Below are positions 6,515 through 12,767 of a stretch of DNA of 64,000 nt, one piece after another. Location: positions 124,001-188,000 of the forward strand of contig NZ_KB898921.1 of the NCBI RefSeq assembly GCF_000377945.1. Direction: 5' to 3'. Each line of letters starts with the position of its first letter. Within the stretch, counting starts at the first letter, position 1. A model generated the notes under the pieces. It saw only the letters and a list, made by a program, of their open reading frames with translations. It was not told where the DNA came from and did not search any database. A program made the translations under genes and the position numbers. The DNA is from Thioalkalivibrio sulfidiphilus. GTDB taxonomy: Bacteria; Pseudomonadota; Gammaproteobacteria; Ectothiorhodospirales; Ectothiorhodospiraceae.

Positions 6515-6591
6515 GACAGCTCCAGTGCAGTTTCTTAACTTGAATGGATCGTTCAATGGGTCTTGGGTAGTTGATGTGGTTTCCGTTCCCT

Positions 6592-6866
6592 TTGTCCAGG
6601 TCATTTCGTACGCGTTCAGCGTAACCCTGAATCTCTGGGTGCGTGAACTGGGTGCAACGATAAGCTGATCCGGGGTCTGTCCGGCTAGCAAAAGGGGGCG
6701 GAGGGATGAGAGTTTAATCCCTCCACCCCCTCGAACTGTCTTTCCCGGTACTTGCTGCTGCTTACAAGGGCGTTAATTGTACTGAAATTGCGCACCTAAG
6801 GCCGGATTTCGACTGTTTATTGGGGAATAATCTTTTATAAACATGAGCTTGCCGAGGTCCGACCCC
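6592..6866. repeat. 275-bp intergenic repeat, copy A (with internal hairpin)
   Basis: This segment and copy B at 9336-9609 are clearly homologous across their length. Both start TTGTCCAGG and end GAGGTCCGACCCC, and between them share GGTCTGTCCGGCTA, AAAGGGGGCGGAGGG and CTGCTGCTTACAAGGGC. A hairpin (6694-6707 with 6717-6730, one mismatch) lies in the middle. It fills the 380-bp gap between the antitoxin gene and the MBL-fold gene; no other gene is visible there. Confidence 0.75.
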
Positions 6867-6894
6867 GCTATAGTTTATTCCTGCATTCCTGGAA

Positions 6895-7203
6895 TTATGC
6901 GTCTGCGACCTCACGAAGAACCTCTGGATGGCGAGACACAATCTTAAGAAGGGTTGCAGCCGCACCAGACGGCTGCCGGCGCCCTTGCTCCCATTGCTGA
7001 AGCGTGCGGGACGAAATGTGCAGGGCGGCAGCAAACTGCGCCTGCGAAAGGCCCGACTTGAGGCGCGCCGCAACCACGTCATTGGCCTCAACGCTGTACT
7101 TGGCGCCGTGCTTTCCGTTCTTGACGTCACGAATGGCCTGCAGCAGCTCTTCCCCGATGTTACGGTTTGAATCACGCGCTGAAATGGACTTTTTGCTAGT
7201 CAT
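6895..7203 (-). CDS. Antitoxin, XRE-family helix-turn-helix (HigA/NadS-like)
   Basis: A 102-residue protein with a C-terminal XRE DNA-binding domain (about residues 45-90) containing GLSQAQFAAALHISSRTLQQ and EQGRRQPSG. The N-terminal part (IGEELLQAIRDVKNGKHG) is typical of antitoxins encoded after RelE/HigB-like toxins. The ATG at 7203 overlaps the end of the toxin frame, as in intact pairs of this type. The antitoxin is intact, while the toxin has an internal stop. It probably represses its own promoter through the palindrome at 7522-7536. Confidence 0.85.
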   Translation of the reverse strand: MTSKKSISARDSNRNIGEELLQAIRDVKNGKHGAKYSVEANDVVAARLKSGLSQAQFAAALHISSRTLQQWEQGRRQPSGAAATLLKIVSRHPEVLREVADA

Positions 7204-7510
7204 GATCAAGTTCCTCCGCGATTTGGCGCAATACATGCGATGCAATATTGTCCTTCGCGCTCTTGGAATAGATTGTGAGCAGCACTACTGTGCCGCGTTT
7301 GAGGCGCACGGTGTGGATGACTCGTACACCGCCGCGCTAGCCCATCCCGGGGCGAGTCCACCGGATCTTGCGACACCCACCGGAGCCGGGGATCAAGTCG
7401 CCAGCTTCGGGGTTGCCCGCCAGATGGGTGGTGAACTCGCCGTGCTCCTCAACCGACCAGTAGTCAGGCCAGAGCTTGCTAAAGAGTGGCGACTCAATGA
7501 TGGTCAGCAT
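7196..7510 (-). pseudogene. RelE/HigB-type toxin, inactivated by an in-frame amber codon
   Basis: Read from the ATG at 7510, this frame gives a 104-residue RelE/HigB-like toxin except for one TAG at 7339-7337 (codon 58). Before it lie EEHGEFTTHLAGNPEAGD and CRKIRWTRPGMG; after it RGGVRVIHTVRLKRG, LLTIYSKSAKDN and LRQIAEEL, the conserved second half of the family. The interrupted site is normally Lys in GxGKxGGVRV, so one AAG-to-TAG change explains it. The frame ends by overlapping the antitoxin start. No other frameshift is seen. Confidence 0.85.
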
Positions 7511-7521
7511 TGGCACGAATG

Positions 7522-9057: not shown

Positions 9058-9336
9058 TCAGATGAAAGGTGACAGCTGACAGCGCCATTGATGCATTGCA
9101 CCATCGTCTGCGCTGGGGCGTTTACCCGCTGTTGACTGTAGCGGACGTCCCTGCCGTCGAAACTCGATCCGACGCCCCAGGATCTGTTCCACCTCGTCGA
9201 CGAAACGTCCGTTTCCGGTCAATTGTCCACGTTGTAGGGCTTCCCGAATGAGCCGAGTCTCTGCCTCGGGCACTGCCTCCCGTATAAAGGCCCTGTATCG
9301 CTCCCGCCTGGCGGTGTCCGATGTCCCAAGCGCCAT
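9058..9336 (-). pseudogene. C-terminal remnant of a REP-associated tyrosine transposase (RAYT)
   Basis: Only the C-terminal end of a Y1/RAYT transposase survives: ALGTSDTARRERYRAFIRE, then LTGNGRFVDEVEQILGRR and a final RQGRP are characteristic of that family's tail. The catalytic HUH domain and Tyr helix are absent. The remnant abuts repeat copy B precisely at 9336, suggesting that rearrangement removed the rest. RAYTs mobilise REP hairpins, and several hairpins lie on both sides. Confidence 0.75.
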
Positions 9337-9609
9337 TGTCCAGGATCTTTCGTGCGCGTTCGGCGCAACCTTGAATCTCCGGGTTGGTGAAGAGAGGCGG
9401 AGATAAGAGGGCCCTGGGTCTGTCCGGCTACTAAAAGGGGGCGGAGGGATTACAGGTTGACCCTCCGCCTCCCTCTAACTGTCTTTCGCGATGCTTCCTG
9501 CTGCTTACAAGGGCATCAATTGTACTTAAATTGCGCGTTTAAGGCCGAATTTTGGCTGTTTTCAAGGGGATTATTCTTTATAAACATTAGGTTGCAGAGG
9601 TCCGACCCC
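9336..9609. repeat. 274-bp intergenic repeat, copy B (with internal hairpin)
   Basis: Homologous to 6592-6866 over its full length with scattered substitutions. The internal hairpin pairs 9437-9449 (GGGGGCGGAGGG) with 9461-9473 imperfectly. It occupies most of the 350-bp gap between the transposase remnant and the small gene at 9691. No gene is seen in the repeat itself. Confidence 0.75.
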
Positions 9610-9690
9610 GTTATTTGAGGTGAGACCACTTAATCAGACGTTTCCTAATATTAGCGGATATTGCTCTCTGACCCGGTTTTCGGTTTTTTA

Positions 9691-9891
9691 TTATTCTAGC
9701 AGGCCTTCCTTTCGCCATTGTGCTGCGGATTTTAAAATCCCACATTCTGTGCAGATATAATCGCCAGTACCACCACCTGGACCCTTTTCTTGCGTGAGTC
9801 TTCCATGTTTACCATTGTTGCATAACCTATCAACGGTTTCTTGCTCATTTTTTGATAAACCGTGCCAATCTCTAGCGGTAGATTTCCACAT
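9691..9891 (-). CDS. Small hypothetical protein with possible zinc ribbon
   Basis: A 66-residue protein from the ATG at 9891, chosen because AGGAG lies eight bases upstream; a GTG at 9900 also opens the frame. It has ICTECG plus an earlier Cys and His (LCNNGKH), which could form a small zinc-binding site. It is AT-richer than most of the window, like the three genes upstream on the same strand, and may belong to the same acquired module. I do not recognise a family. Confidence 0.55.
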   Translation of the reverse strand: MWKSTARDWHGLSKNEQETVDRLCNNGKHGRLTQEKGPGGGTGDYICTECGILKSAAQWRKEGLLE

Positions 9892-9919
9892 ACGATTCAC
9901 TCCTAAAATTTATAGAACT

Positions 9920-9965
9920 AAAAGGGGACGGAGTGGATTAAAATTTAATCCCTCCGTCCCCTTTT
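9920..9965. repeat. Long hairpin, AAAAGGGGACGGAG family
   Basis: Arms 9920-9942 and 9944-9965 pair with one mismatch or bulge. It carries the same GGACGGAG...CTCCGTCC motif as the other island hairpins. It lies between the small gene and the DUF262 gene and could act as a terminator for the latter, since a T-run follows on the plus strand side only. Confidence 0.7.
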
Positions 9966-10051
9966 TCTGGTTTATGTACACTTTGAGCGCAATAAGTAAA
10001 CTGTCCCCGGATTTCGGTTTATGCGCATATTTATGTATGAACAGAGGCTCC

Positions 10052-11095
10052 CTAAGCCTCGAACAGATGACAAACACGGGATTCCAAAGCTTCGAATCGC
10101 CGCTTTCTACTACCAAGATCGGTACTCGCGCGTATACCCGCTCCGTAATCTCGGGCTTCTTGGGGTAGCGTGTGCTTGTCTGCATCTTCTGCGCTAACAA
10201 ACTCATCAATCTGCGAGGCAAACTGGCGCAGCGTATCGGCGGCCTCCTGTCGCGAATCAGACGCGAGTGGTAGAGCTTCGTGATATTTGGCCATCACAAG
10301 GAATAAGGTGTAAAAGTCCGTCTTTTTACTCCATCGTGTTCTTGCCAAGTCCGGCAGCACCTGCGTGAGCTCTCCCAGGACATCGCGAAAAATCTTCTTC
10401 ACACGCGCTCCGTGCTCAAATGAGTCTTCATAGACTTGGTAATAATGCTCAAGTTTGGCTTTCTTATTCTGATGTCCATTCAGTACCGCAACCGTGAGTT
10501 CGCTAATGAACTCAACATCTAGCATCCGACGTATATCATTCGGCGAAAAAATGCCAAATTGAGACCACTCGTCCCAATCAGAAATCTCATTCATTAACTT
10601 TATGAATGGCCCCCAGTATGTAGCTTGCCGTAATTCCTGTTTATTCAGGGCCGCGACGTTCTTATTCAATCGTTGAAAGATCTCCCGGATCTGTGCGTCA
10701 TCCATTTCGGGTAGCTGCCGTACGATAAAATCGTACTGACGAATCCTCTTTCTATCGTGCACCGTCAGGTCGTCGAAGTACATGTCACCCCAAGTGGGGC
10801 TGTCCTTCGGGTCTAAAGCAAACCCTCCCGCTACATACTCCAATACTGCTCTAAGGCGCTGCTGCCCATCCACGACTACGTACCGCGCATCTCCCTCGTC
10901 GTTCACCAAGTCCTGCATATAGATTTCCGGAATTGGAAAACCCGAGAGAATTGTATCTATAAGAAAGCTCTTCTGCCTATGCACCCAGACCGGATTTCTC
11001 TGAAAAGGCGGCTTCATGTCGAGTTCACCCGCTTCGTGCGCTTTCACGAGCCAGTGCACATTTCGCGTTGTTGTGTTCAGGAATTTCTTAATCAT
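10052..11095 (-). CDS. DUF262 domain protein (ParB/GmrS-like NTP-dependent family)
   Basis: A 347-residue protein. The DUF262 signature is clear: PPFQRNPVW at 29-37, KSFLIDTILSGFPIPEIYM at 42-60 and DGQQRLRAV at 76-84, the ParB-fold active-site motif. DUF262 forms the N-terminal half of type IV restriction enzyme GmrSD and occurs in many defence loci. No C-terminal DUF1524 HNH nuclease is visible, so this is a DUF262-only protein with a helical C-terminal half. Its start overlaps the stop of the nucleotidyltransferase gene by eight bases, so the two are translationally coupled. Confidence 0.88.
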   Translation of the reverse strand: MIKKFLNTTTRNVHWLVKAHEAGELDMKPPFQRNPVWVHRQKSFLIDTILSGFPIPEIYMQDLVNDEGDARYVVVDGQQRLRAVLEYVAGGFALDPKDSPTWGDMYFDDLTVHDRKRIRQYDFIVRQLPEMDDAQIREIFQRLNKNVAALNKQELRQATYWGPFIKLMNEISDWDEWSQFGIFSPNDIRRMLDVEFISELTVAVLNGHQNKKAKLEHYYQVYEDSFEHGARVKKIFRDVLGELTQVLPDLARTRWSKKTDFYTLFLVMAKYHEALPLASDSRQEAADTLRQFASQIDEFVSAEDADKHTLPQEARDYGAGIRASTDLGSRKRRFEALESRVCHLFEA

Positions 11096-11678
11096 CGTCG
11101 TTCCCTGCTGTCGCGATTTCGCGCAGCTTTTTTATGTTATTAGTGTGATAAGCGGAGAGGGATTCGAAATCACGATAGACTCTCGCGTTGATGTCCCTAT
11201 CCTGAGTGGGTGCAATAGTTGTCATTTTCTCAAATGCCTCGAACCATTTTTTTCCGAATGGAAGTTTGGGCAGGAGATGTTTGGTATCAAATGTACCCCA
11301 GTAGATCAGGCGTTTCTTATGATCTTCCAAGGAGGCGCGCTGTTTGTTGCTTAAGGAATGGACTTTCGGCCCGAAGCTCCTAACGCAACGCCATGCTACG
11401 TCGAAGTGATATGCAGATATAATCGCAATATCAATGTCGGAAGAGTCGTCAAAATCGCGAAGATTCTTGAGGGGACTCAAGCTGAAGCCAACACATGCGC
11501 TACCAATAATCGTAATCGCACGACCATCAACCTCAATCTTTGAAGCGAGTTGAGACTTCCAATCGACGTATCCCTTCTGGTCGTTTCCAAAGATATGTGG
11601 GGTACGATCGATTACCCACCGTTGCGCGATCAGCGCAGGGCTGGTGCTCTCAAGTTCTTTGATGAAGTTATCCTTCAT
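11088..11678 (-). CDS. Nucleotidyltransferase-fold protein
   Basis: A 196-residue protein from the ATG at 11678 (AGGCGG upstream; the frame opens at a TTG at 11705). The pol-beta/MNT signature is visible: GSACVGFS from residue 59, then DSSDIDIAII with metal-binding Asp81 and Asp83. The spacing between GS and DxD is longer than in small MntA antitoxins. A HEPN gene lies upstream and DUF262 is coupled downstream. By analogy with HEPN-MNT pairs it may nucleotidylate the HEPN protein, but a sensor or second-messenger role is also possible. Confidence 0.75.
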   Translation of the reverse strand: MKDNFIKELESTSPALIAQRWVIDRTPHIFGNDQKGYVDWKSQLASKIEVDGRAITIIGSACVGFSLSPLKNLRDFDDSSDIDIAIISAYHFDVAWRCVRSFGPKVHSLSNKQRASLEDHKKRLIYWGTFDTKHLLPKLPFGKKWFEAFEKMTTIAPTQDRDINARVYRDFESLSAYHTNNIKKLREIATAGNDDD

Positions 11679-11849
11679 ATCCGCCTGGCGTCGAGACACT
11701 AACAATAGAGGTAGTCCGGAGAAACCGCGTCAGAGAGTCACTATCTCCGATATTTTCTAGGAAAAAGGCGACTGGGAAGAAGGTGACAGATCTATTTTTA
11801 CACCGCAATAATATATCTGCCACCTTTGTCAATCCCACTCTGAGTCGGT

Positions 11850-12536
11850 TTACGAATCCGGTTTGCGCATATTCCACGGGTAAGCCTCATGAATAAGACT
11901 CAGCAATACAGCCAAATTTTCTTTGACCATGGACAGCGCCCGCTCTAGGTACGGTAGTCCTAATACGAGCTGATTGTCTCGCAATTCAATATCGCTTGTT
12001 TTCTCAACGATAGTCTTTATGCTATGCAAGCGATTACTGCTTAAAGCGCCAATGTTTCCATTGGAGTGGGCAAAAACATTCCGTACGATTCTGATTTCAT
12101 TGAGATTCTGATCAAGGCGGACTTCCTTTCCAGCTACCAGTTTCAGATATAGTTCAATTCTCTTTTTCTGATTTTGCTCCCTTAGCCCATCGAGCGATAG
12201 CGGGCAAGATTCCTGACTCTTGACATAGGAGCAAACCTGCGCGGCGCCTTCTTCAAAAGCCGCCCAAGTTGCTACTAAAACCGAACCACCGAGCAGGCTT
12301 GGAATAAGACCATTAACGGTCCAATCGTGGGTCTCATACTCTTCAGCAAGATCATTCTCGGATAAGCCTGGATAGTCCTTCTCCAATCGGGCCTTGAACC
12401 GAATCATGCTTTGATCTTGGATGACAGGAAGGAACTCGATCACCGCGTTCAAGTAATCTTCTACAGACCCGATCTTGGCGCTTATCGCCAATCCTGGATA
12501 TCCATCTTCGAAGATGCGTTGGAGGTCAAATTCCAT
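11850..12536 (-). CDS. HEPN-domain protein (candidate ribonuclease)
   Basis: A 228-residue helical protein. The C-terminal half contains EIRIVRNVFAHSNGN, in which R152-N153-x3-H157 matches the Rx4-6H catalytic motif of HEPN RNases, including the usual polar residue after Arg. The helix ATWAAFEEGAAQVCSYV is like the first HEPN helix of larger MAE_28990/RiboL-PSP-type families. It is the first gene of an AT-richer minus-strand cluster with the nucleotidyltransferase (172 bp away) and DUF262. Family assignment rests on the motif and fold pattern only. Confidence 0.65.
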   Translation of the reverse strand: MEFDLQRIFEDGYPGLAISAKIGSVEDYLNAVIEFLPVIQDQSMIRFKARLEKDYPGLSENDLAEEYETHDWTVNGLIPSLLGGSVLVATWAAFEEGAAQVCSYVKSQESCPLSLDGLREQNQKKRIELYLKLVAGKEVRLDQNLNEIRIVRNVFAHSNGNIGALSSNRLHSIKTIVEKTSDIELRDNQLVLGLPYLERALSMVKENLAVLLSLIHEAYPWNMRKPDS

Positions 12537-12767
12537 CTTTAGTTAAGGCTTTGGTAAAGGTGCAGTTGGCGCGCCCAGCGGTCCAGACGCCACCTGCAAC
12601 CATGAGCGGTGCAAAAATAATTCTGTCACCATTTTTACCTCTGACCAGGTTTATCAATCTGCCTCAAGAATAACGCAGGTTTCCATGGGGCTGAACCCAT
12701 GGCGAGATAAGCAGGGCGCGGCGAATGCGCTCCGCTCATCCGCCCTACGCTACAGGAAAGCTCGTAT

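Follow-up and report, generated by a model that had tools for sequence, protein, structure and literature searches.

Gene organization of the locus

In a 64,000-nucleotide stretch of a Thioalkalivibrio sulfidiphilus contig (the window), three consecutive genes on the minus strand encode a HEPN-domain protein, a nucleotidyltransferase-like protein (NTase) and a DUF262 protein, with a small open reading frame (ORF) and inverted repeats among and beside them:

9691-9900, minus strand: small CxxC ORF (69 aa)
9920-9965: palindrome with perfect 14-nt arms (DNA fold z = -7.4), between the DUF262 gene and the CxxC ORF
10052-11095, minus strand: DUF262/GmrSD_N gene (347 aa; DGQQR at residues 76-80; PF03235)
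11088-11678, minus strand: NTase gene (196 aa from the ATG; G59-S60...D81-x-D83)
11777-11826: REP-like inverted repeat (hairpin), between the HEPN and NTase genes
11850-12536, minus strand: HEPN-domain gene (228 aa; R152-x4-H157; PADLOC RTasHEPN, E=5e-5)
12606-12635: second REP-like copy, upstream of the HEPN gene, inverted relative to 11777-11806 (a 30-nt pair, 83% complementary)

An earlier note on this DNA had described three coupled minus-strand genes followed by a small CxxC gene. All of these ORFs, their strand and the CxxC gene are present, and the motifs read in them (R152/H157, G59-S60 with D81/D83, and DGQQR) are exact. The coupling is limited to the NTase and DUF262 genes, which share an 8-nt overlap; the HEPN gene is separated from the NTase ATG by 171 nt that include the hairpin, and the description of three coupled genes is therefore wrong. 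The block is AT-richer than its flanks, as had been stated, at 46-49% GC, with GC3 of 0.49-0.54 in the three genes versus 0.75-0.81 in the genes on either side. The CxxC ORF matches phrog_28897 weakly (E=7e-4), PHROGs and plasmid searches returned no plasmid homolog and no informative homolog, and we found no evidence that it belongs with the NTase and DUF262 genes.

The surroundings are rich in repeats and mobile remnants. The HEPN gene is flanked on both sides by REP-like elements (GGTGACAGATnTATTTTT): a pattern search counted four copies in the genome, three of which lie there, and one pair forms the hairpin in the HEPN-NTase gap. Palindromic repeats gave 3 and 5 matches against 0.00 and 0.05 expected, bearing out the earlier description of a repeat-rich island, and Rfam RNA and tRNA searches yielded nothing that explains the palindromes. 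The transposase remnant named there is likewise real, being a C-terminal piece at 9058-9336 with 60% identity to an annotated transposase. Adjoining it is an approximately 80% identical direct repeat (6589-6871 and 9333-9614) that ends in a palindrome (AAAAGGGGGCGGAGGGATTA) and looks like degraded REP/RAYT elements. The 'broken toxin gene' of the same island (7337-7516) found no backing, the segment having no Pfam match; positions 7180-7516 may hold what is left of a frameshifted RelE/HigB-type toxin gene, next to an HTH-like ORF.

The NTase and DUF262 genes as a two-gene unit

The NTase and DUF262 genes almost certainly constitute one two-gene unit. An initial search found an NTase gene followed by a DUF262 gene in Guyparkeria, and the collection now stands at 23 loci besides the window in which DUF262 lies directly downstream of the NTase, duplicates having been removed (L002 = L025, L012 = L018, L037 = L014). 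When an alignment of five NTases was used to scan 84,980 species, 17 loci were recovered and DUF262 was immediately downstream in 17/17; the hosts include Bacteroidota, Acidobacteriota, Bacillota, Pseudomonadota and a metagenome-assembled genome (MAG) labelled Lokiarchaeota. The two viral contigs matched by the NTase alignment also carry DUF262 directly downstream (2/2). Two pairs are plasmid-borne (L008 and L036), one in Pseudoalteromonas and one on a 6.2-kb Cronobacter plasmid, and further pairs were found in two genomes (L013 and L038).

The spacing is equally tight. With start codons as we chose them, on which the counts depend, the two genes overlap in 18 of 20 aligned pairs including that of the window, and are 2 and 9 nt apart in the others. 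The NTase and DUF262 distance matrices are strongly correlated (r = 0.965, 0/5000 permutations); part of this correlation would come from the shared ancestry of the host genomes. The closest relative of the window pair is in Cellulophaga (47% identity for the NTase, 55% for DUF262), and the pair has therefore moved between phyla; it is rare, a single-sequence search of 369 genomes in the class having found it in two, the window's own included. The pair is a mobile module, made as one translationally coupled unit.

Some DUF262 relatives have another partner: on Asticcacaulis and Pseudanabaena plasmids, a DUF262 gene overlaps a downstream gene annotated as a protein kinase (L004, 3989-6135; L006, 3935-6179; L009, 3998-6140). 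The rule that the NTase implies DUF262 therefore holds in this subfamily, and the reverse does not. A sister NTase subfamily lies directly after a transglycosylase-like gene on an Aliarcobacter plasmid (L011, 3250-4504; PF00912) and in a genome from the search of the Cellulophaga phylum (L039, 1468-2794); neither of these NTases is accompanied by DUF262.

Properties of the two proteins

The DUF262 protein matches Pfam GmrSD_N (PF03235) at E=1e-21. Its AlphaFold model (pLDDT 87.8, pTM 0.66) finds BrxU (7p9k) as best Foldseek match with a probability of 1.00, followed by ParB and sulfiredoxin, and the protein is accordingly predicted to have a ParB/Srx NTPase fold with an intact DGQQR motif. This motif is kept in 20/20 aligned proteins, and R330xxR333 in the C-terminal half is invariant across the same 20-row alignment. 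The C-terminal half of the model consists of helices throughout and shows no HNH domain, and the Pfam search gave no DUF1524 match in the protein. The earlier statement that the usual HNH partner is absent is thus upheld; the coupled partner is the NTase.

In the NTase, Gly59, Ser60, Gly64, Ser80, Asp81, Asp83 and Ala85 are invariant across 20 aligned homologs. The spacing between the two motifs is GSX20DXD in the window protein and ranges from 18 to 26 residues across the family. No third acidic residue is conserved in this alignment, and catalysis is for that reason not assured. No convincing Pfam, NCBIfam or PADLOC family was obtained for any NTase searched, the window protein matching none; NTP_transf_2 is matched weakly by 2/20 homologs, an MntA model gives a sub-threshold match in one homolog (E=0.03), and the sole PADLOC match among the NTases searched is a weak one to Cyclase in the sister NTase of L011 (0.005). 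The window NTase matches phrog_32008 over its full length (E=1e-48; 1e-52 for the NTase of L014). Its structure model is confident (pLDDT 90.3). A Foldseek search of this model against PDB and BFVD gave no significant neighbour, and the alignment profile gave no meaningful match among PDB sequences. The nucleotidyltransferase call of the earlier note leans on the invariant GS and SDxD residues and the weak NTP_transf_2 matches. A search of sequenced phage records gave no NTase, and scans of viral contigs with the single NTase or the single HEPN protein returned no relatives.

Genomic neighbourhood

Several pairs lie beside genes of restriction or anti-phage systems. A C5 DNA methyltransferase is directly upstream of the NTase in four loci (L024, L026, L027 and L028), the first of which also has an EcoO109I-type restriction endonuclease and Vsr; in L015 and L016 the pair faces a convergent DNA methyltransferase gene, and BREX PglZ and BrxL are directly upstream in L029. 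A NERD protein (L021), an HNH protein (L030) and an integrase (L031) flank others. For many pairs (e.g., L014, L018 and L025), no defence gene could be recognised within the neighbourhood covered. The pair is likely to be a defence system, because its two genes travel together in both bacteria and archaea and do so next to genes of known anti-viral function. A transposase of the REP-associated type (Y1_Tnp-like) is directly downstream of the pair in Shewanella (L020, 7783-8757) and Zhongshania (L023, 7905-8882); the Y1_Tnp match of the latter is below cut-off, and the former is assigned by sequence similarity only.

A model for the pair and its alternatives

Our leading but tentative model is a DUF262 defence module of two genes, with the NTase as a DUF262-controlled effector that replaces the nuclease. 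In this model, DUF262 would use NTP binding and hydrolysis to detect DNA that is foreign or carries different modifications, as in BrxU, GmrSD and SspE, and would control the NTase, which would stand in for the HNH nuclease usual in such systems. The activated NTase would add nucleotides to a target in the cell (tRNA or protein) and thereby block phage multiplication, probably because the cell itself comes to a halt. In loci with a methyltransferase adjoining the pair, DUF262 may read the methylation mark of the host. The effector role of the NTase, taken by itself, is a plausible but similarly tentative proposition.

The main alternative reverses the relationship: the NTase would act as a regulator or antitoxin, keeping a toxic or restricting DUF262 protein silent by nucleotidylation, and infection would lift the block. 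The NTase gene comes first in every pair, like many antitoxin genes; MntA antitoxins nucleotidylate their partner (PMC7641770), and ParB/Srx proteins can nick DNA (PMC12839542). However, no toxic DUF262 protein lacking a nuclease partner was reported in the literature searched, and no acceptor site is known; we consider this arrangement somewhat unlikely. It is less likely still that the NTase is catalytically dead and has a structural or DNA-binding role within a restriction complex whose active part is DUF262, possibly together with a methyltransferase. The lack of a conserved third carboxylate and the methyltransferases adjoining the pair in several lineages are consistent with such a subunit, but GS and SDxD are invariant in 20/20 homologs, which would be unusual for a dead enzyme.

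The HEPN gene

Assignment of the HEPN domain by the earlier note is reasonable: the window protein and both of its relatives match PADLOC RTasHEPN weakly but consistently (L034, 4e-7; L035, 1e-5; the window protein, 5e-5), and all three keep Rx4H, although the profile matches are sub-threshold. Pfam HEPN_RiboL-PSP is matched by L034 only (2e-5, below the family cut-off). The window motif reads R152-NVFA-H157-S-N, and both relatives also have Asn at the last of these positions. These two are the only relatives found in a search of 399 genomes, and both are solitary, with no NTase or DUF262 gene nearby. In L034, a second small protein containing RNNLFH is encoded ahead of the HEPN relative (748-1305 and 1468-2127); this protein is perhaps HEPN-like, has no Pfam match, and the two adjoin an IS3-type transposase.

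That HEPN, NTase and DUF262 together form a three-gene defence module, as first proposed, is very unlikely. The three genes are adjacent, on one strand and of similarly low GC content, and HEPN proteins of the RiboL-PSP type are often coupled to DUF262 elsewhere: DUF262 is nearby on the same strand in 10/25 such loci (L041, L042, L043, L044, L045, L047, L051, L052, L058 and L059), and an 'operon with ParB' has been reported for this type (PMC3710099). Against this, the HEPN gene is missing from all other pair loci examined (phmmer and motif scan; 19 other NTase loci). Nor was it found in 18 pair-bearing genomes or records, a search that had no positive control and used a query that had retrieved relatives of 19-27% identity among the 399 genomes. 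The trio is seen in this window only. The hairpin and 171-nt gap set the HEPN gene apart with bracketing repeats of its own, and the true DUF262-HEPN pairs differ in design: DUF262 precedes HEPN in the loci read, an NTase is lacking, and phmmer finds no link between their proteins and the window HEPN. In the three examples read (L041-L043), DUF262 comes first and DGQQR is replaced by DGLQR, DGHQR or DGKQR.

The HEPN protein was thus rejected as a third component on linkage, repeats and motifs, and its gene is probably an independent, repeat-bracketed neighbour outside the NTase-DUF262 unit, with a small chance that it is a recruited extra effector. The proposal of a new defence module, with genes co-occurring in order and near defence genes, accordingly survives for the NTase-DUF262 pair and falls for HEPN. 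The case is a caution against inferring a shared system from adjacency within an island.

That this mobile pair serves something other than defence, such as plasmid or prophage maintenance (addiction), is highly improbable; the pair does occur on a 6.2-kb plasmid and beside integrases, but is repeatedly sited beside restriction-modification and BREX genes.

The NTase-DUF262 pair spans several bacterial phyla and the MAG labelled Lokiarchaeota. Nuclease-less DUF262 proteins are common and their action is unexplained, and a compact pair with an invariant partner makes the question testable. Two small genes frame it: whether DUF262 activates the NTase or is itself silenced by it.

Relationship to known systems

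A type VII HEPN-MNT toxin-antitoxin system with DUF262 as a bystander is scarcely credible: a HEPN protein with Rx4H is encoded beside an NTase with GS and DxD, as in HepT/MntA, but the motifs are RX4HXN and GSX20DXD rather than the RX4HXY of HepT and GSX10DXD of MntA (PMC7641770), the HEPN gene is upstream although the MNT gene normally comes first (PMC3710099), and the NTase is tied to DUF262, its adjacency to HEPN not being conserved. The type VII assignment was ruled out on these motifs, and the RNase toxin/AMPylating antitoxin reading of the earlier note finds no support in them or in the gene linkage.

With GmrSD, BrxU and SspE, the pair shares the DUF262 domain with DGQQR, the ParB/Srx NTPase fold and the defence-island setting. 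In SspE, DUF262 is an NTPase controlling a nuclease; BrxU and GmrSD, which also contain it, are enzymes responsive to modified DNA (PMC10952713). Unlike type IV enzymes of the GmrSD family, the window pair has no DUF1524/HNH domain, whether fused or as a partner, and the NTase is coupled instead; membership of GmrSD was rejected on the missing nuclease partner. The best PADLOC match of the DUF262 protein is NsnA of Menshen (NsnABC; 2e-39, residues 7-211), and PD-T4-2_A of PD-T4-2 matches at 1e-20. The DUF262 proteins of both systems lack DUF1524, like that of the window (PMC10952713). Membership of either was discarded on missing partner genes: PADLOC detected no NsnB, NsnC or OLD-type nuclease among the HEPN, NTase and CxxC neighbours.

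The RiboL-PSP pairs likewise couple DUF262 to a small partner enzyme; theirs is a HEPN protein downstream with no NTase, whereas the NTase of the window is upstream of DUF262. This coupling, together with the kinase-paired relatives, supports DUF262 as a sensor module with exchangeable partners, and HNH, HEPN, kinase and NTase all fit such a series. The NTase family is contained in phrog_32008 of PHROGs, an unnamed sequence cluster with neither a function nor a partner assigned. The pair is named in none of PADLOC, Pfam and NCBIfam, and we found no description of it in the open-access literature searched, subscription papers lying outside that scope. Possibly it represents a defence class unnamed in the searched databases, where an NTase, and not a nuclease, is under the control of a DUF262 (ParB/Srx) NTPase sensor, as one case of the exchangeable-partner design. 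The NTase-DUF262 pair adds a new variant to the DUF262-based systems rather than a separate kind of system.
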